From Caloramator sp. E03 (GTDB lineage Bacteria; Bacillota; Clostridia; Clostridiales; Caloramatoraceae), in assembly GCF_006016075.1 (NCBI RefSeq), contig NZ_CP040093.1, forward strand, positions 1,054,001 through 1,118,000: DNA of 64,000 nucleotides, in the 5' to 3' direction. The notes under the pieces are model-generated. The model saw only the letters and a list, made by a program, of their open reading frames with translations, made no database searches and was not told where the DNA came from. Position 1 is the stretch's first letter. Each line of letters opens with the position of its first letter. The translations under genes and the position numbers were made by a program. Below, piece by piece: positions 19,250 through 30,944 of the stretch.

Positions 19250-19711
19250 TTATTTAATTGAAATATTCATTTCTAAAGAAAAATCCTCATCAAAAATAAA
19301 TGGTATGCAATTAATACAAGTACTCTTTAAGCTTAATTTAAGATTTTCACCTGTTAAAATTGTGGGAGGAGTTATATCAATATTAATTTTGTTTTTTGAA
19401 AAGGCAGTTGATACATGCCCTAATATCATATTACTTAGTTCAGCAATAGCACTCTTAGCCATTTCATCTAATGTAGAAATTGGAAATCCTCCCATCATTA
19501 AAGAAGCTATTTTTTTTGCTGAGTCATCATTTAACGATAAAATTGTGCTCCCATGAAAATCTCCAGCTATTCCTATTAATATAACTAAATTATTTCCTTC
19601 AAAAGGAGTCGTTTTTATATATAAATCACCTGTTTTAGGCTGCAATCCTGTAATCTGTCCTATTACTTCTTTACAAGAATCAATAAAAATATTTAAGTGC
19701 TCTAAAGTCAT
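19250..19711 (-). CDS. cheX: CheX/CheC-type CheY-P phosphatase
   Basis: 153 residues, of CheX size and pattern. FIDSCKEVIGQITG is the N-terminal helix, and the active-site helix SAIAELSNMILGHVSTAF holds the conserved Glu and Asn that attack CheY-P. The C-terminal half covers TPPTILTGENLKL. It dephosphorylates CheY-P as a dimer. It is the last gene of the chemosensory operon, 18 bp after cheB. No cheC or cheD is present. RBS AGGAGAGGAG is clear. Confidence 0.85.
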   Translation of the reverse strand: MTLEHLNIFIDSCKEVIGQITGLQPKTGDLYIKTTPFEGNNLVILIGIAGDFHGSTILSLNDDSAKKIASLMMGGFPISTLDEMAKSAIAELSNMILGHVSTAFSKNKINIDITPPTILTGENLKLSLKSTCINCIPFIFDEDFSLEMNISIK

Positions 19712-19729: not shown

Positions 19730-20788
19730 TTAAGTTGCATAATTTATTATTTGTTGATAAATATTGGATAATGGTACCTGAATATTAGCAAGTCCAGCTT
19801 CAAATACTGCTTTAGGCATTCCATATACAACGCAAGATTCTTCAGCTTCAACAATAATATTTGCATCAAACTTTTTAGCTAATTTACACCCTTCTAATCC
19901 ATCATTTCCCATTCCAGTAAGAATAACTATAAGCATTCTCTCCTTATATATATAAGCAGCAGAATTAAGTGTTACATTAATAGAAGGTTTATATAATATT
20001 TCATCATCAATACTATTTTCAATTTTAAAAGCTATTTCCCCAACATTATTCTTCTTTAATAAAGTTTGAAAACCTGAAGGTGCAATATATATACAGCCTG
20101 ATTTTAAAATCTCTTCATCTTCCGCTTCTTTTACACATAAATTGCACATTTTATCAAAACGTTCGGATAGCGATTTTGTAAAACCTGGCGGCATATGCTG
20201 TAAAACTAAAATAGGAACATTAATATCCTTTTGAAATTGTGGAAGTATATTTTGTAATGCTGCAGGTCCTCCTGTAGAACATCCTATTATAATAATATCA
20301 ATTTTCTTATTCGCAGCTGATTGTTTAAGCGTATTTACTTCTTCGTGAATATAATGTTTATTATCCACTAAAGGAACTTTAGCTTTTTGTGCTAATATCT
20401 TTATTCTATTTAAAAAATCACTAATCAATTCTTCACTAACATCTTCCTTGACTAATTCGCTCTTTAAAAAGAAATCAACTGCTCCTAATTCTAATGCTCT
20501 TAAAGTAACCTTTGCACCTTCCTCTGTATGATTGCTTAACATAATAATCGGCAATGGATGTTCTTTCATTATTTGTTCAACAGCCATTATTCCATCCATT
20601 TCTGGCATTTCAACATCCATAGTAACAATATCAGGCTTTAATCTTTTTATTTTTTCAATTGCTTCTATACCATTTCTTGCTATATCCACAACATAAAGCT
20701 GAGGATCCTTTTGAATAATTAAGCTAATGCACTTTCTCATAAAGGAAGAATCATCAACAACTAATACACTATATTTCTTATCATCCAC
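19730..20788 (-). CDS. cheB: protein-glutamate methylesterase/deamidase
   Basis: 352 residues from a GTG at 20788, preceded by AAGGGGG at nine bases; it begins four bases after the cheR stop. A longer in-frame reading to 20848 would run back into cheR and lacks a site. The N-terminal receiver domain has phospho-Asp in IVTMDVEMPEMDG. The C-terminal methylesterase has a catalytic triad in GCSTGGPAAL (Ser), LQHMPPGFT (His) and TGMGNDG (Asp). It removes methyl groups from, and deamidates, chemoreceptors when phosphorylated by CheA. Confidence 0.95.
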   Translation of the reverse strand: MDDKKYSVLVVDDSSFMRKCISLIIQKDPQLYVVDIARNGIEAIEKIKRLKPDIVTMDVEMPEMDGIMAVEQIMKEHPLPIIMLSNHTEEGAKVTLRALELGAVDFFLKSELVKEDVSEELISDFLNRIKILAQKAKVPLVDNKHYIHEEVNTLKQSAANKKIDIIIIGCSTGGPAALQNILPQFQKDINVPILVLQHMPPGFTKSLSERFDKMCNLCVKEAEDEEILKSGCIYIAPSGFQTLLKKNNVGEIAFKIENSIDDEILYKPSINVTLNSAAYIYKERMLIVILTGMGNDGLEGCKLAKKFDANIIVEAEESCVVYGMPKAVFEAGLANIQVPLSNIYQQIINYAT

Positions 20789-20792
20789 AACT

Positions 20793-21605
20793 TCATGCCC
20801 CCTTCTTATAGTAAAAAACTGATGGCGTATAAATAGTTTTAAAATCACTATTTATGCCATTTATTGTCTCAGCATGACCTAAAAGCAAGTATCCATCTTT
20901 ATTAAGTATATTAAAAAAAGATTCTATTATCTTTTTAATAGTATTTGAATCAAAATATATTAATACATTTCTACAAAAAATAATATCAATTTTTCCTAAA
21001 ATAGTCTGATTTTTCTCATCTAATAAATTAAGATTTAAAAACTTAACCATTTCCATTATAGAATCTTTAACTTTATATTCCTCACCTAAATCATCAAAAA
21101 ATTTTTCTAATGAACCCTCAGGCATCCTTCTAAATGAAAACGATTTTTTATTGTATATACCCTTTTCAGCTCTTTTTAAAACTTTTTTATTTATATCTGA
21201 TGCAATAATTTGTACTGCACCCTTCTCAAATAAGCCGCTTTCTTGAATTAACATTCCCAATGTATAGGGTTCTTCTCCTGTGGAACATGCAGCACTCCAA
21301 ATTCGCAGTGGATTTTGTGGAGTTCTATCAGAATATTGAGGAAGAATAACCTTTTGGAACTCTTCAAGTAGACTTTCTTCTCTAAAAAAATATGTTTCAT
21401 TTACTGTAATTAATTCTATTAAAATATCCCATTCATCTGGTTCCATATTAAGATAGCCGCAATATTCCCAATATGATAATCCCAATTCTTTAAGTCTATC
21501 ATTAATTTTGGATTCCAAATTTGTAAGAGATTTTTTATAATCTATGCCGCATTTATTATATATAATTTCCGCTAAATCTTTCAGACCAAATGCATTTATT
21601 GGCAT
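20793..21605 (-). CDS. cheR: chemotaxis protein methyltransferase
   Basis: 270 residues from the ATG at 21605 (GGGGGG eight bases upstream; the ATGs at 21611 and 21623 are too close to or before that site). An N-terminal helical domain is followed by a SAM methyltransferase: RIWSAACSTGEEPYTLGML, ASDINKKVLKRAEKGIY, and the catalytic-fold segment IDIIFCRNVLIYF. It methylates Glu side chains of MCPs. It is between the giant MCP and cheB. Confidence 0.95.
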   Translation of the reverse strand: MPINAFGLKDLAEIIYNKCGIDYKKSLTNLESKINDRLKELGLSYWEYCGYLNMEPDEWDILIELITVNETYFFREESLLEEFQKVILPQYSDRTPQNPLRIWSAACSTGEEPYTLGMLIQESGLFEKGAVQIIASDINKKVLKRAEKGIYNKKSFSFRRMPEGSLEKFFDDLGEEYKVKDSIMEMVKFLNLNLLDEKNQTILGKIDIIFCRNVLIYFDSNTIKKIIESFFNILNKDGYLLLGHAETINGINSDFKTIYTPSVFYYKKGA

Positions 21606-21667
21606 TATCATAACCCCCCACATTTTAATATGGCAATGAGGGAAGAAAAATCTTCCCTCTATAATAT

Positions 21668-24600
21668 TTACATTTCTAATCCTTTAATTTCTTCAAGAAC
21701 TAATTTCATTTCTTTTGTTAATGCTGAAATTTCCTTAGTAGTTTCCGCAGTTTTTTCTACATCTTTTATATTTTCATTAACAACTTTATTTATTTCTGCG
21801 GTATATTGAGTTAATTTTTTAACTTCATCAAGTTGAACTTTAGTTGCATTTGCTACTTCATTTGCTTGTCCTGCTACATTATTAACATTTTTAACAATAC
21901 TTTCAGCAGTAATTGTTTGTTCCTTCATTGCCGCTGTTATTTGTCTAACCTGCTCTCTTGCATTCTCTACTCCCTTTACTATCTCTTCTACTCCCTTTGC
22001 TTGTTCTACTACTGCCACTGCTACCTGTTCTGCCTGATTTGTTACATTCTCTACTGATACTACTATGTTTTGTCCCTGCTTTGCCTGTTCCTTTGTTGCT
22101 ACGGTTATTTGTCTAACCTGCTCTCTTGCATTCTCTACTCCCTTTATTATCTCTTCTACTCCCTTTGCTTGTTCTACTACTGCTACTGCTACCTGTTCTG
22201 CCTGATTTGTTACATTCTCTACTGATACTACTATGTTTTGTCCCTGCTTTGCCTGCTCCTTTGTTGCTACGGTTATTTGTCTAACCTGCTCTCTTGCATT
22301 TTCTACTCCCTTTATTATTTCTTCTACTCCCTTTGCTTGTTCTACCACTGCCACTGCTACCTGTTCTGATTGCTTTGTTACGTTCTCTACTGATACTACT
22401 ATGTTTTGTCCTTGCTTTGCCTGTTCCTTTGTCGCTGCTGTTATTTGTCTAACCTGCTCTCTTGCATTCTCTACTCCCTTTATTATTTCTTCTACTCCCT
22501 TTGCTTGTTCTACTACTGCCACTGCTACCTGTTCTGCCTGATTTGTTACATTCTCTACTGATACTACTATGTTTTGTCCCTGCTTTGCCTGCTCCTTTGT
22601 TGCTACGGTTATTTGTCTAACCTGCTCTCTTGCATTTTCTACTCCCTTTATTATTTCTTCTACTCCCTTTGCTTGTTCTACTACTGCCACTGCTACCTCA
22701 CCTGATTGTTTTGTAACATTTTCTATAATTTTAAGCATGTTTTGACCTTGTTTTGCCTGCTCCTTTGTTGCTACAGTTATTTGTTTAACCTGTTCTCTTG
22801 CATTTGCTACCCCCTTTATTATCTCTTCTGCTGCAAGAGCTTGTTCCTTTGTAGCAGTATTTATCTGATTTACCTGCTCTAAAACATTCTTCATTGCATC
22901 TAAAACTTTAACTGTTCCTTTGCTCTGTTCTTCAGTTGCAACATTAATTTGACGGATTTCAGTGTTTACATTATTTATTCCATCTACTATAGTTTCAATA
23001 ACCTTACCCATTTCATTGCTTAATTTTGTTCCATGTTCTACTTTTTCTGTTCCAACTTCAATAGCCTTTATAGCTTGCGATGTTTCACCTTGAATTCCTT
23101 TTATAAGAACAGCTATTTCTTTTGTAGCTGTAGCCGTTCTTTCTGCAAGCTTTCTTACTTCATCTGCAACAACAGCAAAACCCTTTCCATGTTCTCCAGC
23201 TCTTGCTGCTTCTATAGCAGCATTTAAAGCCAATAAATTTGTTTGTTCTGCAATATCATCAATTACTTCTATTATACTTCCAATTTTTTCAGAACTCTTT
23301 CCAAGATTATTTATAACCTCTCCTGCTTTAGATATAACCACCGATATCTCTTGTATAGCTTGCATAGTATCTTCTACTGCTTTATGCCCTGTTTTTGCTT
23401 CATTATGTAAATTATCACTTAATTTACCAACATTCTGAGCATTATTTGCAACCTGATTTATTGATGCTGCCATATTTTCTACTATTCCATAAGTTTCAGT
23501 TGATGCTTTTTCTAATTTTTCAGCATTGCCTGCTACTCCCTTTATTGATTTACCCATCTGTTCTATTGACGCTGATATCTGCTCTACTGCACTTGCTGTA
23601 GTTTCACTGTTCCCTGCTACCTGCTGTATACTTGCTACCATCTCCTGAGTAGCTGCAGCTGCTTCTTGGGCTGAGCCCTTTAAGCTCTCTGCATTTCCTG
23701 CTACTCCCTTTATGGATTTGCCCATCTCTTCTATTGATGCTGATATCTGCTCTACAGCACTTGCAGTGCTCTCGCTGTTCCCTGCTACCTGCTGTATACT
23801 TGCTACCATCTCCTGTATTGCCGCTGCTGCCTCTTGGGCTGAGCCCTTTAAACTTTCTGCATTGCCTGCTACTCCCTTTATGGATTTGCCCATCTGCTCT
23901 ATTGATGCTGATATCTGCTCTACAGCACTTGCTGTGCTCTCACTGTTCCCTGCTACCTGCTGTATACTTGCTACTATCTCCTGTATTGCCGCTGCTGCCT
24001 CTTGGGCTGAGCCCTTTAAACTTTCTGCATTGCCTGCTACTCCCTTTATTGACTTGCCCATCTGCTCTATTGATGCTGATATTTCTTCTACTGAACTTGC
24101 TGTACTCTCACTGTTTCCTGCTACCTGCTGTATACTTGCTACTATCTCTTGTATTGCCGCTGCTGCCTCTTGGGCTGAGCCCTTTAAACTTTCTGCATTT
24201 CCTGCCACTCCCTTTATGGATTTGCCCATCTGCTCTATTGATGCTGATATTTCTTCTACTGAACTTGCAGTGCTCTCGCTATTCCCTGCTACCTGCTGTA
24301 TACTTGCTACTATCTCTTGTATTGCCGCTGCTGCCTCTTGAGCTGAGCCCTTTAAGCTTTCTGCATTGCCTGCTACTCCCTTTATTGATTTACCCATCTG
24401 CTCTATTGATGCTGATATCTGTTCTACAGCACTTGCAGTGCTCTCACTGTTTCCTGCTACCTGCTGTATACTAACTGCCATCTCCTCTAATGAACTTTTT
24501 GACATATCTACAAGTTTTCTTAACTGTTCAGAATTTTTTACGACTCCATTAATAGAATCAAAAATTCTTTCTGTCATGCTGTTTGTTTCTTCAACAGAAG

Positions 24601-24760
24601 TTGATTGTTCAACTGTTCCTTTTGTAATCTGTTCAGTAATTACTGATAATTCTTTAACTTTTCCTTCAAGCTTACTATTAAAATTTATTGCCCTATTAAC
24701 ATTATTTGAAAAACCTTTATTTTCCAAATATTTAACGGCTATATTTTTTTTAAAACTCAT
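21668..24760 (-). CDS. giant soluble methyl-accepting chemotaxis protein with two 56-residue repeat arrays
   Basis: 1030 residues with no membrane segment and no recognisable sensor domain; virtually the whole protein is heptad-patterned coiled coil. The signalling tip ([20 protein letters not shown], then [17 protein letters not shown]) is near residue 523, almost the exact middle. Residues 101-436 are six copies of a 56-residue unit beginning [17 protein letters not shown], itself two 28-residue halves. Residues 633-968 are six copies (the first divergent) of another 56-residue unit beginning [14 protein letters not shown]. As MCPs fold back at the tip, the two arrays would lie against each other. 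The repeats are also nearly identical as 168-bp DNA. RBS GGAGG precedes the ATG. It sits between cheA and cheR, so it is probably the main receptor of this cytoplasmic array. Confidence 0.93.
21857..22696 (-). repeat. five near-identical 168-bp tandem repeats in the C-terminal arm of the giant MCP
   Basis: Encodes residues 689-968, each unit being 56 residues or eight heptads ([14 protein letters not shown] ... [11 protein letters not shown]). A sixth, divergent unit of the same length precedes it (residues 633-688, to about 22864). High DNA identity points to recent duplication or gene conversion. Confidence 0.92.
23453..24460 (-). repeat. six 168-bp tandem repeats in the N-terminal arm of the giant MCP
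   Basis: Encodes residues 101-436. Each 56-residue unit is two related 28-residue halves (VAGNSES... and VAGNAES...), so four heptads each. The last unit is diverged in its second half. The long open frames on the other strand here are by-products of the repeat. Confidence 0.92.
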
Positions 24761-24792: not shown

Positions 24793-26868
24793 TCAATTTT
24801 CTTTTTCTATTAGAGATACTTTCTTACTTCCAATCATCTTTAAAATACCAGCAACATCTAATATACATGCAACGCTTCCATCACCTAATATTGTTGCTCC
24901 AGAATATCCTTCTATTTTACCAACATATGTACCAAGAGGCTTAACAACGATTTCCTGATTTCCAATAAGCTCATCCACAACAAGTCCAAATCTTTTCTCT
25001 GCAACGCCTAAAAGAAGAACGAAAATTTTCTTTTTCTTTTTCTGCCTTGGAATATTAAAATAATCCTGTAGCCAAATAAGGGGTATTAACTTTTCTCTTA
25101 TTGTAACAACTGCTTGTCCTTTAACATACTCTATTTCTTTCTCAGTCTTTCTAACGATTTCCAATACATTGCTCATAGGCAGGGCATATGCTTCCTCATT
25201 AATTTTAACTAAAAGTCCTGTCAAAATTGCTAAAGTAAGAGGTAATTTGATTGTAACCTTTGTACCCTTTGAAACTTTAGTCTCTATATCAATTATACCG
25301 TTCAGTTTGTCAATGCAATTTCTAACTACATCCATTCCAACTCCACGGCCTGAAACATCACTTATTTTTTCAGCCGTAGAAAGTCCTGAACAAAAGATAA
25401 GATTAATAATTTCCTCTTCAGACATAGAATCCGCATCCTGTTGTGAAATTATTTTTTTCTTTACTGCTGACTCCTTTACTTTGTTTAAATCTATTCCCCT
25501 GCCGTCATCTTCAACCGTTAATACAACATTATTTTCTTGATGAAAAGCACAAATGCGCAGCATTCCCTTTGGAGATTTACCTAATTTAACACGTTCCTCA
25601 GGAGTTTCAATTCCATGATCTATGGAATTTCTTATAATATGAATAAGAGGCTCGGTCATTTCTTCAATTATTGATTTATCCATTTCCGTTTCTCCGCCCT
25701 CAAGAATTAACTCTATATCCTTGTTTAGCGATTCAGATAAATCCCTGACCATTCTTGGAAAACGGTTAAACAGCTGCTGTATGGGAAGCATACGAGTTTT
25801 CATAACTACTTCCTGTAATTCACTTATAATCCTTGATACGTGCGTTGAAACTCCTAAAAGATCATCTGTTAAATTATCAGATGTATATTTATTATGAAGC
25901 ACATTCCCAATTTGATTTATTCTTGTATGTTCAATCAGCAATTCACCAACTAAATTCATCATTTTTTCAAGCTTATCTACATTAACCCTTACTGTTTGTC
26001 CTATCTTTTTCTCACTATTTTCAAAGTTGTTATTTATTTTGCTGCTTGAATTGCTGACTTCAGCATTTTTTGATTTACTAAAAGAGACTGCCGTATCATA
26101 TTCGCTTACAATAATTCTTTCAACATCCATAAGTTCATTTTTTGCTTTTCCCTCTAATGTTTTTGCATCTAATTTTGTTAATAATAAATACAAAATATTA
26201 TCAATTTCTCCATCTATTTGAGATTCCATCAAATTTGGTATAGTTTTAATAACTGAGCCTAATTCATTAAAGTAATTTAATATAAGATGTGCTCGAACTG
26301 ATTTCATAGGACTTTCTTTTGCAAGACTTACATCGCAAATAAAGCAATTCTGCCCTCCAATTACCGCCTGTTCTATTTGAGCTATATGTTCAAAATCAAG
26401 TTCAAAATCTATAGACTTTTTATTATCAATGCTAATTTCTTTAAGATTATTTTCCTTATTTTCTGCATAATCATTTCCTTCAAATATTTTTTTAAGTTCA
26501 TTTAATATTGGTGAAATATCTGTTTTAATATTATTCTTATCAAGAATAAATTCTTCTTTTAAAATTTTTAACAAATCTAAACAATGAAACAAAATATTTA
26601 TTACATCTTTTGTTGCTTTTATTTGATTATTTCTAATTTTATCTAAAACATTTTCCATCTCATGGGTTAGTATTTTCATCTTTTCAAATCCAATTGCAGC
26701 AGATGAACCCTTTAGCGTATGGGCAACCCTGAATATATTTTGGATTGTCTCAGATGTACCTCCATTATGTTCTAAGTCTAATATCCCCTGTTCAAGCTGC
26801 TGCAGCTGTTCTTCAGTTTCTTCATAAAAAGCAGCTAACATCTCAGGGCTATCAAAAATCCCTCCCAT
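24793..26868 (-). CDS. cheA: chemotaxis histidine kinase
   Basis: 691 residues with the standard CheA order. The HPt domain has phospho-His50 in FRVAHTLKGSSAAIGF. A CheY-binding region lies at about 160-270. A dimerisation helix pair begins near VNVDKLEKMMNLVGELL. The ATPase domain has N box HIIRNSIDHGIE and G boxes VEDDGRGID and GRGVGMDVV. A CheW-like regulatory domain lies at about 545-680 (ILTGLLVKINEEAYALP). It phosphorylates CheY and CheB under receptor control. RBS AGGAGGTG precedes the ATG. It lies 14 bp after cheW. Confidence 0.97.
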   Translation of the reverse strand: MGGIFDSPEMLAAFYEETEEQLQQLEQGILDLEHNGGTSETIQNIFRVAHTLKGSSAAIGFEKMKILTHEMENVLDKIRNNQIKATKDVINILFHCLDLLKILKEEFILDKNNIKTDISPILNELKKIFEGNDYAENKENNLKEISIDNKKSIDFELDFEHIAQIEQAVIGGQNCFICDVSLAKESPMKSVRAHLILNYFNELGSVIKTIPNLMESQIDGEIDNILYLLLTKLDAKTLEGKAKNELMDVERIIVSEYDTAVSFSKSKNAEVSNSSSKINNNFENSEKKIGQTVRVNVDKLEKMMNLVGELLIEHTRINQIGNVLHNKYTSDNLTDDLLGVSTHVSRIISELQEVVMKTRMLPIQQLFNRFPRMVRDLSESLNKDIELILEGGETEMDKSIIEEMTEPLIHIIRNSIDHGIETPEERVKLGKSPKGMLRICAFHQENNVVLTVEDDGRGIDLNKVKESAVKKKIISQQDADSMSEEEIINLIFCSGLSTAEKISDVSGRGVGMDVVRNCIDKLNGIIDIETKVSKGTKVTIKLPLTLAILTGLLVKINEEAYALPMSNVLEIVRKTEKEIEYVKGQAVVTIREKLIPLIWLQDYFNIPRQKKKKKIFVLLLGVAEKRFGLVVDELIGNQEIVVKPLGTYVGKIEGYSGATILGDGSVACILDVAGILKMIGSKKVSLIEKEN

Positions 26869-26882
26869 GCTGCACCTCCTTC

Positions 26883-27308
26883 CTAATCGCTTAGAATATG
26901 GTTAATTTCTAATATACTTGCCATTCCTTCTTCCGATATCCCTATTCCAGTAAAATTATTGCCATCTATTCCCGCTACCATATCAGGTGGAGGCTGAATA
27001 TCCGAAAACTTTATTACATGATTTACTCTATCAACAACTATTCCTATCATCTCATCATTACTTTTTACAAATATAATTCTGGTAGACTTTGAAACTTCAT
27101 AATTAGTAAGACCAAATTTTTTATGCAAACTTACAACAGGGACAATCTTTCCTCTAAGATTTATAACCCCCTCTAAAAAGGGTTTACTATTGTGAATTAC
27201 GGTTATCTTCTGCATTTTAATTATCTCATAAACATCACTTATTTTAAGTGCATACCTCTCATCTGATAGTTCAAATACTACATATTGCATTTCAAGCATA
27301 TCATCCAT
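26883..27308 (-). CDS. cheW: chemotaxis coupling protein
   Basis: 141 residues forming one CheW domain. YVVFELSDERYALKISDVYEI is the first strand pair, FLEGVINLRGKIVPVVSL the second subdomain, and DDMLEMQ the short start. It bridges CheA and the chemoreceptor tips. It lies between cheY and cheA with gaps of about 30 and 14 bp. RBS GGGGAGGTGAGG is strong. Confidence 0.96.
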   Translation of the reverse strand: MDDMLEMQYVVFELSDERYALKISDVYEIIKMQKITVIHNSKPFLEGVINLRGKIVPVVSLHKKFGLTNYEVSKSTRIIFVKSNDEMIGIVVDRVNHVIKFSDIQPPPDMVAGIDGNNFTGIGISEEGMASILEINHILSD

Positions 27309-27339: not shown

Positions 27340-27693
27340 TTATAGCTTGCTTAAAGTTTGAACTACATAATCTTCCTTAAAAGGTTTAACTATAAATCCC
27401 TTTGCTCCTGAAAGCACTGCTTCCTTTACAAAGCTTTCTTGCCCTAATGCTGATATCATTACAACTTTTGAACTCGGATCTAACTGCCTTATCGCCTTAA
27501 GTGCTTGTACACCATCCATCTCAGGCATTGTTATATCCATTGTAACTATATCAGGTTTTAATTCATTATACTTTCTTACTGCTACTGCTCCATTTTCTGC
27601 TTCACCAATAACTTCAAATCCGTTCCTTTCAAGCATAGTTTTAAGTGTCATTCTCATAAAAGCTGCATCATCAACAACTAATACTCTCTTCAA
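27340..27693 (-). CDS. cheY: chemotaxis response regulator
   Basis: 117 residues from a TTG at 27693, with GGGGG seven bases upstream. An in-frame GTG at 27720 gives nine extra residues but has no good site. Single receiver domain: acidic pocket VVDDAAFMR, phospho-Asp in DIVTMDITMPEMDG, Thr/Ser region VVMISALGQ, Lys in GFIVKPFKED. It is the first coding gene after the c-di-GMP riboswitch and terminator. With no motor genes in the window, its output may be flagella, pili or something else. Confidence 0.92.
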   Translation of the reverse strand: MKRVLVVDDAAFMRMTLKTMLERNGFEVIGEAENGAVAVRKYNELKPDIVTMDITMPEMDGVQALKAIRQLDPSSKVVMISALGQESFVKEAVLSGAKGFIVKPFKEDYVVQTLSKL

Positions 27694-27734
27694 ATTTTCA
27701 CCCCCATATTTTATTTTCACCCATTATTAACATA

Positions 27735-27906: not shown

Positions 27907-29193
27907 TCAATTATGCTTTACTAATTTTACAATTTCTTCCTTATCAACAGGCCTGCTAATATAATAGCCTTGTATTTTATGACATCCTATTTCTTTAAGG
28001 TATTCAAATTGATGCATACTCTCTATACCTTCAGCCACAATTAAATATCCTAAACTGTTGAATAAATCAATAAAGCATTTAATCATTAATTTTACCCTAT
28101 AGTCTTCACTTATTAAATCAACTATTTCCTTTGATATTTTTATATACTTTGCAGGTATTTTAATTACATTATTTATCTGAGAATAGTCGCTCCCATAATC
28201 ATCTAAAGCCAAAGATATCCCTAATTCTTGAAGCTTTTTTATAATTTGTCTTTTTTTTGAATCTGCCTTTATTAGCTGTGTTTCTGTAATTTCAAATACT
28301 ATTCTATTAGTATCTATATTATACTTTTCCTTTAAACTTTTTACTTTTTCTATAAAATTCATATCGCTTATCTGAACAGGAGATATATTTATATTTACAG
28401 TTAAATTAATGTTCATATTCTCCCATTCTTTAATTTGTCTAAATACCTTTTCTAAAACCGCATACCCAAAATCAATAATTAATCCTGTCTCTTCTAAAAT
28501 GGGAATAAATTCTACCGGGGGAACTTCTCCAAATTCTTTATTTTTCCACCTTGCCAATGCTTCAACTTCATATATCCTCTCTAAATTAATATCATATATA
28601 GGCTGATATACTAAATAAAATTCATCGTCTTCTAAGGCCTTTTTTAAACAAGCCATAAGCTTTGTCTTTCTTACAATTTTTTCTTCTAAAATCCCTTCAA
28701 ATACGGTCATCTTATTTACCTTAGTTCTTTTTGAATAATTTAATGCCACATCAGCCCTTCTAATTATTTCATACAAATCCTCATTAGGTTTTCCTAAATA
28801 AATACCTGCACTTACTGTCATTAAAAATTTTTTGCCTTCAAATTCAAAAACATCTTCAAATTCATCTATTATTTTAGTAATACTTTCATTAATCTCTTCT
28901 AAAGGCCTATCAACATATAAAACTATGAATTTATCACCACTGAATCTTACTATAAACCCTTTATCTTCATTTAATTTTTTAAGCTTTTGTGCTAATAATA
29001 TTAAAACTTTATCACCAAAAATATGGCCATATGTATCATTTATATATTTAAAGTTATCAAAATCCAATATAGCAAGACCTATTATTTTATCTTTATAATC
29101 TTTGTAAAATTTTTCTAAATAATATTTGTTATAAACATTGGTAATAGGATCAATATATTCAAAATTGTCTACGGCCAAATTGCTTTCTCCCAT
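27907..29193 (-). CDS. c-di-GMP phosphodiesterase with degenerate GGDEF and intact EAL domains
   Basis: 428 residues from the ATG at 29193 (GGGGGG five bases upstream; the ATG at 29217 overlaps the MCP stop). The GGDEF domain is about 20-170 with the signature changed to SGDKF (RFSGDKFIVL), so no cyclase activity is expected; it may bind GTP. The EAL domain, about 185-425, keeps EVEALARW, the NINISPVQ Asn, ITETQL Glu, LALDDYGSDYS Asp pair, the IKISKE Lys and VAEGIE, so it probably cleaves c-di-GMP. No membrane segment is seen. It lies directly upstream of a c-di-GMP riboswitch, which suggests a local feedback loop on the chemosensory genes. Confidence 0.93.
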   Translation of the reverse strand: MGESNLAVDNFEYIDPITNVYNKYYLEKFYKDYKDKIIGLAILDFDNFKYINDTYGHIFGDKVLILLAQKLKKLNEDKGFIVRFSGDKFIVLYVDRPLEEINESITKIIDEFEDVFEFEGKKFLMTVSAGIYLGKPNEDLYEIIRRADVALNYSKRTKVNKMTVFEGILEEKIVRKTKLMACLKKALEDDEFYLVYQPIYDINLERIYEVEALARWKNKEFGEVPPVEFIPILEETGLIIDFGYAVLEKVFRQIKEWENMNINLTVNINISPVQISDMNFIEKVKSLKEKYNIDTNRIVFEITETQLIKADSKKRQIIKKLQELGISLALDDYGSDYSQINNVIKIPAKYIKISKEIVDLISEDYRVKLMIKCFIDLFNSLGYLIVAEGIESMHQFEYLKEIGCHKIQGYYISRPVDKEEIVKLVKHN

Positions 29194-29216
29194 TTTATCC
29201 CCCCATTTTGTATACA

Positions 29217-30944
29217 TTAATTAACCTTAAATTTATTTACAATATTAGCAAGGTCTATTGCCATAGCACTTAGTGTCTGGGAAGTTGATGCTATTTCTTC
29301 TGATGATGCTGATATCTCCTGTGATGATGCCGAAACTTCTTCTGTTGCTGCAGTATTCTCTTCAACTACTGCACTTACTCCTTCTACCTTCTCTAATACT
29401 ATATCCTTAGATTTTACTATTTCATCCATTCCCTCATAGGTTCTATTCATTAAAGGTGCAATGTTTTCAACTGATTCTAATATTAATCCAAAGGACTCAA
29501 CAGTTTTACCTACCGCATTTGTCTGGGATTTTATAAAGTTTTCAACCTCATTTGAAGTTTTTATAACCTCATCTGTATCAGATTGAATTGAATTTACAAG
29601 CTCAATTATATCTGCAGTGGATTTTTTAGACTCCTCAGCAAGCTTTCTAACTTCCTCTGCAACTACTGCAAAGCCTCGGCCTGCCTCTCCGGCCCTTGCA
29701 GCTTCAATTGCTGCATTAAGTGCCAAAAGATTTGTCTGCTCTGATATTGAATTTATAACATTTGTTATATTATTTATTTCTTTAACAGAGCTTGTAAGAT
29801 TTCCAACTTTATTTATAACAACTTCAAAGGCATTTTTAATTTCTTCAATAGATTTAACAAGCTTGTCCATTTCCTGTTTTCCAATATTAGCTTTATCCGT
29901 TGCATTATCGGTTTCAGTTTTTACATTTCTAAGTTCACCATATACATTTTCAATGCTTTTTGTTAAATCAGCAATTAATTGAACGATTGACTGTAAATCG
30001 TTAGCTTGGGAAGATGCTCCATCTGCAACCTGCTGCATAGTATTTGCAAGCTCTTGAGAGGATGATGCCATCTCCTCTGATGTAGCCGATAGCTCCTGGG
30101 AACTTGCACTTAAAGTTTCAGTATTAGTTATAATTTCTAACAATGCCTTTTTAATATTTTCTACCACCATGCTCAAGGATTTATTCATTTGAACAAATTC
30201 GTTTTTGCCATTAGTTTCCATATCGACTGTAAAATCATACTGACTGAGCTTTTCAGCCACATTGTTAATCTGTGCCATTGAATTTTTTAATAGCTTTATT
30301 ACTAAATATGCTAATACTGCCGATAAAATAGTTAGTGAAATAGAAATCCAGATCATTATAGTTCTTGATTTAGAATAAAGTAAATTAGCCCTATCTACAG
30401 CAGCTTTAGATTCAGATGCATTCTTTTCAACTAAACTGTTTATAGCATTTTGAATGTTTACAGTTAAATTTCTTTGATTTTGAATTTCTTCTTGAGATAT
30501 AACCTGATTGGATTTTAATTTATTAACTAATAATTTTTCGTTATCCATAAAAATATTATATGTATTTTCAATTTCTCCAAGCATTCTCTTTTGTTCTTCA
30601 TTCATTTTTGTATTTCTATAGTTTAAAAGTATTTTGTCAATGCTTTCTTTTTTATTATTTATTTTTTGTTCTTGTTCTGCATCATATTTACCTGAAAAAA
30701 TCATTTGCGTTAATGATACTCTGATTTGATAAAATTCGGTTTCAAAAAGTTTTAATTGAAGGGAGGGAAGCATTCTTTCATTATATAGATTGTTCATATC
30801 ATTGCTTAATGTTTTCATGTCGTTAATACCAAGTAATGAAATAGAAATAAGTGAGGCTGCCATAATTAGTACCAAGATAATCAGTAGCGAAGTAATTTTA
30901 ATGTTCTTTAAAATATTAGTGCCTTTGTTATCTTTTTTTACCAT
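29217..30944 (-). CDS. membrane methyl-accepting chemotaxis protein with 4HB-type sensor
   Basis: 575 residues. TM1 is at about 14-40 and TM2 at about 195-217. The roughly 155 extracellular residues between them are helical, like the four-helix-bundle MCP sensor ([17 protein letters not shown] region). A HAMP segment is at about 218-270. The cytoplasmic hairpin has its tip at [20 protein letters not shown] near residue 420. It ends shortly after a Ser/Glu-rich methylation helix, without a CheR-tethering pentapeptide. RBS GGGGAG precedes the ATG. It overlaps the start region of the GGDEF-EAL gene, so both are co-transcribed. Confidence 0.93.

Follow-up and report, generated by a model that had tools for sequence, protein, structure and literature searches.

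How long can the hairpin of a chemoreceptor become, and what keeps its two arms equal when its length changes? Both questions are raised by an open reading frame of the window (the whole 64,000-nucleotide stretch of Caloramator sp. E03 that was analysed, which sits inside one single 2.98-Mb contig). It runs from 21668 to 24760 on the minus strand and encodes a chemoreceptor (MCP) of 1030 residues, with the following parts:

21668..24760, minus strand: giant soluble chemoreceptor (MCP) of 1030 amino acids; open reading frame with a Pfam MCPsignal match (E 4.9e-66), without a membrane segment
24461..24760, minus strand: N-terminal cap, residues 1-100, a short basic start and then helix; the basic start is common to most relatives
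23453..24460, minus strand: N array, residues 101-436, made of six units of 56 residues (8 heptads) that carry methylation-type E/Q sites
22865..23452, minus strand: central core with the signalling tip, residues 437-632; Pfam match at 448-626, homologous to PDB 2ch7
23180..23212, minus strand: hairpin turn, residues 517-527; the helix of the fragment model breaks at residue 521 and nowhere else
21857..22864, minus strand: C array, six 56-residue units, residues 633-968, with a conserved core Gln every 28 residues
21668..21856, minus strand: C-terminal cap, residues 969-1030, and stop

The MCPsignal domain (PF00015), which is the conserved signalling tip that marks an MCP, is the sole credible Pfam domain of the protein. 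The protein contains no proline. It has no membrane-spanning segment (maximum 19-residue Kyte-Doolittle mean of 0.89), nor has any relative (family maximum of at most 1.29), so that it belongs with the soluble, cytoplasmic receptors. In agreement with these data, a first-pass annotation of the DNA had described 1030 residues, no membrane segment and a tip at about residue 523; we place the tip glycine at residue 522. The Pfam search returned no ligand-binding or HAMP domain in this protein. Its other Pfam matches, including one to a phage tape-measure protein, and the coiled-coil matches to SMC and Rad50 were rejected as low-complexity helix matches. Two antisense open reading frames across the arrays (209 and 246 aa) were also discarded, since they are mirror images of the repeats.

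Self-comparison of the protein gave a peak at a lag of 56 residues (77% on the N side and 73% on the C side), with a weaker half-period at 28. At the nucleotide level, Tandem Repeats Finder reported two 168-bp arrays of 5.3 and 5.8 copies, with 92% matches and no indels and with scores (1492 and 1546) far above chance. The units number six per side and lie exactly at residues 101-436 and 633-968, as had been proposed at first. Divergence is greater (67-79% nucleotide identity) in the tip-proximal unit of either arm and in the C unit farthest out, and the remainder share 86-99%. A check of the coiled-coil register, which the first-pass annotation had suggested, gave a single unbroken heptad frame: in profiles compiled from 190 N units and 198 C units of Clostridia and Bacilli, the a/d pattern, as assigned in this analysis, is continuous over all eight heptads. 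The window protein has about 147 heptads in total, or 72-75 paired heptads. The same profiles contain highly conserved polar and surface positions, and in each C unit two core positions 28 residues apart (unit positions 9 and 37) are occupied by a conserved Gln. An R-E-Q-V motif at positions 24-27 of the C units is, like these glutamines, highly conserved across Clostridia and Bacilli. With dN/dS at about 0.07-0.35 in most arrays tested, the units are mostly under purifying selection.

For the fold, we modelled the fragment 325-745, which includes two units per side. The model (mean pLDDT 75) consists of two unbroken helices joined by one turn at residue 521, that is, an antiparallel helical hairpin around the tip. 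It aligns with the receptor 2ch7_A of Thermotoga over 309 columns (rmsd 2.9 Å, TM 0.86 by target) and also matches McpB models, and the sequence search agrees with homology to 2ch7. The full-length AlphaFold model, with a pLDDT of 55, was too uncertain to use and gives the outer arms at low confidence only. It has symmetric helix breaks near residues 239-256 and 788-805, which fit a folded-back hairpin yet may be a modelling effect.

At 10.5 Å per paired heptad (PMC6628036), the rod of the window protein would be about 76-78 nm long, compared with the 70 nm first suggested, and its relatives would range from about 60 to 110 nm, the longest at about 110 nm. The known MCP classes, 24H to 64H, comprise 12-32 paired heptads, and a few rare receptors are longer (PMC6628036, a 2019 study). 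The window protein, with about 72, and its matched relatives, with about 58-107, lie beyond these classes. They share with them the PF00015 tip, the antiparallel hairpin, continuous heptads and arms that vary in matched heptad pairs, but differ in that each arm of the giant family varies by 8 heptads at a time, in the form of recognisable repeat units. Likewise, Tm14 of Thermotoga maritima (3g67, 3g6b) and the Tm1143-type cytoplasmic domain (2ch7) have a homologous core and hairpin, and Tm14 also has no membrane segment; at 213 and 309 residues, however, both are without tandem arrays, whereas the giant receptor has arrays and 1030 residues. We found no description of the giant family in the open-access literature, to which the search extended, and an earlier mention elsewhere is possible; within this scope, its length, modularity and lock-step series appear to be undescribed so far.

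Relatives were collected by a genome-contig scan and by searches of about 1,450 genomes, with three C units as bait. Including the window gene, the family comprises 29 open-frame genes, one of which (L145) is cut by a contig end, and one broken gene (L132), with homologues of 525 to 1478 residues. Measured from the tip glycine, the arms of typical members (N/C, in residues) are 409/394, 466/452, 521/509, 578/561, 634/620, 690/674 and 746/730, climbing by successive 56s on both sides alike. N and C unit counts are equal in 25 of the 28 complete intact genes and range from 4 to 10 (four units, n=4; five, n=3; six, n=5; seven, n=1; eight, n=3; nine, n=3; ten, n=6); all ten intact genes from single-contig genomes, nine genomes in number, are matched. 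This comparison of arm counts, which the first-pass annotation had put forward as a check, speaks strongly for its proposal of a hairpin with matched, adjustable arms far past the described classes. It had also worried that the units start at unequal offsets from the tip (87 and 110 residues), which carries little weight because the place at which a tandem array is divided into units is arbitrary and the two arms differ throughout the family by a near-constant 15 residues or so.

On a tree built from CheA, CheR, CheB and the receptor core, the 25 matched genes require at least 13 changes of unit number. Among these 25 genes only, N- and C-arm lengths correlate with a raw r of 0.9989 and, by independent contrasts, with an r of 0.9976 and a slope of 0.997; adding the three mismatched intact genes lowers these to a raw r of 0.949 and a contrast r of 0.56. 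Every C arm measures a multiple of 56 residues with a deviation of -2 to +4, and length therefore changes in steps of 8 heptads, never of 1 or 4. In two genes, L143 and L146, recognisable unit sequence is lost from the outer blocks at approximately the same distance to the tip in both arms while the arm lengths are still equal, which is hard to explain unless the arms pair along their length.

The equal-arm rule, though strong, has exceptions. Three intact genes are mismatched, each on a terminal branch of the tree: L056 (3 N and 2 C units, from a short-read draft), L058 (1 and 2 units, from a MAG) and L133 (G899:C1 4622000-4640000), which has 6 N versus 10 C units in an intact frame. N unit 4 of L133 combines parts of units 4 and 8 of L134, its 10/10 sister, joined at a clean recombination junction, and the units are only about 80% identical to one another. 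For both reasons, L133 looks like a true in-frame deletion of four N units and not like an assembly collapse. Its remaining units are still under purifying selection, so the deletion is probably recent. L133 is in effect a ready-made natural mismatched allele, 10/10 to 6/10. The broken gene L132 (G846:C1 2698000-2714000), from a single-contig genome, has 5 N and 6 C units and a TAA stop some 30 codons upstream of the tip, and is apparently a decaying copy.

The first-pass annotation had further held that N and C units were added in pairs. The counts fit this idea, the mechanism does not: averaged over 25 genes, the similarity of N and C units is no better when mirrored about the tip (r 0.34) than in the reversed control (r 0.37), and natural mismatches exist. 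We thus rejected co-duplication of N and C units as a general mechanism; a mirror pattern is present in L143 (r 0.89) and L146 (r 0.87). Across genes, the mean identity within the N array correlates with that within the C array (r 0.87), suggesting that the arms are of similar ages or turnover. Given the unmirrored unit genealogies and the mismatched alleles, the arms appear to change in separate events and to be kept equal by selection. The simplest account would therefore be that recombination between repeats alters each arm separately and that selection favours equality.

Selection for equality need not extend to length itself. A hairpin could need nothing more than equal arms, with recombination varying the repeats along a neutral ratchet and total length having no function of its own. 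Unit number does vary between close relatives (8, 9 and 10 within one Clostridium clade; 4 versus 5 within one Bacilli clade), so that no particular length seems essential. The independent unit genealogies of the two arms and the loss of unit sequence from some outer blocks would also be expected. However, most units are under purifying selection, with surface residues conserved in Clostridia and Bacilli, and we found no intact gene with fewer than two C units, though the three-C-unit bait would miss such genes. This reading is possible, and the strongest of the rivals, but we hold the odds to be against it.

The receptor gene lies in a cluster with the order cheY, cheW, cheA, MCP, cheR, cheB, cheX:

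27340..27720, minus strand: cheY-like response regulator; Pfam and synteny
26883..27308, minus strand: cheW coupling protein; Pfam and synteny
24793..26868, minus strand: cheA, dedicated histidine kinase; Pfam Hpt, P2, H-kinase_dim, HATPase_c and CheW
20793..21623, minus strand: cheR methyltransferase; Pfam and synteny
19730..20848, minus strand: cheB methylesterase; Pfam and synteny
19250..19711, minus strand: cheX phosphatase; Pfam CheX

An upstream cheW-cheA and a downstream cheR-cheB recur at nearly all relatives in Clostridia and Bacilli, and the cheA genes next to the relatives' receptors are 43-62% identical to that of the window. No cheA was found within the stretch examined for L127 and L128, and the neighbourhood of L145 is cut by the contig end. 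We infer from this conserved adjacency that CheA and CheW are putative binding partners serving the giant receptor. A second che cluster in the same genome lies among flagellar genes (CheA2, CheC, CheD, FliM, a FliY-like protein and FlgK), which indicates that the giant receptor is served by a signalling set of its own. The nine other measurable receptors of the genome have C arms of 153-157 residues or shorter ones of 84-85, compared with 509 in the giant receptor. Directly upstream of the cluster, at 27907-30944 of the window, are a GGDEF-EAL protein and a transmembrane-type MCP with a 4HB sensor. Elsewhere in the family, the genome G392 carries two receptor copies (L085 and L086), both 10/10 and each beside its own che genes.

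The presence of cheR and cheB bears on the N arm, whose units have two E/Q pairs each, with E14 and E21 conserved. In the window protein, 11 sites conform to the strict methylation consensus, at -128, -149, -184 and farther out as far as -408; two ordinary receptors encoded by this genome likewise have consensus sites from -128 on, at this and adjoining positions. Across the family, the N-arm sites, 286 in number, all share the heptad phase of the Tsr sites, for which we assumed the usual Tsr methylation-site numbering. Together with the adjacent cheR and cheB, these sites make it plausible that putative methyl-accepting positions extend along the N arm. It is conceivable that the arrays expanded as an adaptation amplifier, with selection for more methylation sites and for finer or slower adaptation, and with arm matching as a by-product. 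The canonical phase, the conserved E14 and E21 and the proximity of cheR and cheB are in line with this idea, as is the number of strict N-arm sites in the family, 285 versus 199 (sd 11) in heptad-preserving shuffles, although this test is weak because units are not independent. The C arm, on the other hand, is not enriched in the methylation consensus (9 sites versus 8.2 expected), and on balance we consider such an origin of the arrays somewhat unlikely.

The N-terminal cap offers yet another possibility, namely that the rod is a spacer that links the CheA/CheW-binding tip to the nucleoid or to the membrane through its basic start, as in FrzCD, whose basic tail binds the nucleoid, and that rod length determines how far it reaches. 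A short basic start, e.g. MGxFxKxxAxKxM, is present in most relatives. To our knowledge, no long matched arrays are known in FrzCD. FrzCD of Myxococcus xanthus is a soluble receptor with a nucleoid-binding basic N-terminal tail (PMC5716589), and it resembles the giant receptor in being soluble, in having its own che cluster and in its basic N terminus. However, the basic start is weak or absent in L052 and L057, and its amphipathicity is modest, with a hydrophobic moment of about 0.45-0.7 in most relatives; a membrane-anchoring amphipathic helix at the N terminus was rejected because of these modest moments. An anchored spacer is thus doubtful. Finally, that an assembly artefact lies behind the equal arm counts or the repeat count of the window is highly improbable: exact repeats reach 161 nt in the C arm of the window gene and two of the mismatches stem from draft or metagenome assemblies, but errors would yield mismatches and not equality, the intact genes of the single-contig genomes all match, and many arrays have units just 60-75% identical, which cannot be collapsed.

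We favour, with a probability of roughly 0.6, a soluble MCP folded into a single, very long antiparallel hairpin, with arms kept equal by the packing of N against C units, in a private CheA/CheW array. The dimer would be a rod of four helices, about 76 nm long, in which the CheA/CheW-binding tip lies opposite the end that holds both termini, and each N unit would pack against a C unit. Lone gains or losses of units would arise by recombination between repeats, and the arms would stay equal because this packing makes a lone change harmful until the other arm follows. Together with its own CheA, CheW, CheY, CheR, CheB and CheX, the receptor would form a private cytoplasmic array, in which its length would keep it apart from the ordinary membrane receptors of the cell. 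CheR and CheB may tune it at the methylation-type sites repeated along the N arm. Since no sensory domain is recognisable in it, its input probably enters by way of the terminal caps or of adaptation itself. According to PMC7534058 (citing Herrera Seitz 2014), a one-heptad change of length suffices to segregate receptors, and soluble receptors of Rhodobacter sphaeroides and Vibrio cholerae form cytoplasmic sandwich arrays with two baseplates (PMC3964821). Taken together, these precedents make a private cytoplasmic array the most likely arrangement for the giant receptor. Baseplates in the R. sphaeroides and V. cholerae arrays are 27-35 nm apart, whereas the giant rods would permit about 150 nm.

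Receptor length decides which receptors share an array, and the two arms of a hairpin are expected to change together. The natural length series described here, which spans 4 to 10 unit pairs and includes a few mismatched alleles, would allow a direct test of this arm-matching rule: how arms stay equal, how much mismatch is tolerated and whether a conformational signal can travel along a coiled coil of 76-110 nm. More tentatively, and with the balance of probability tilted the other way, the paired units may act as a molecular ruler that sets rod length (about 60-110 nm) and hence baseplate spacing or reach; signals would then pass along the whole rod, tuned at some 10-20 methylation sites per monomer, and separate mutations of the arms would be restored to equality. 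The giant family roughly triples the described size range of receptor classes.
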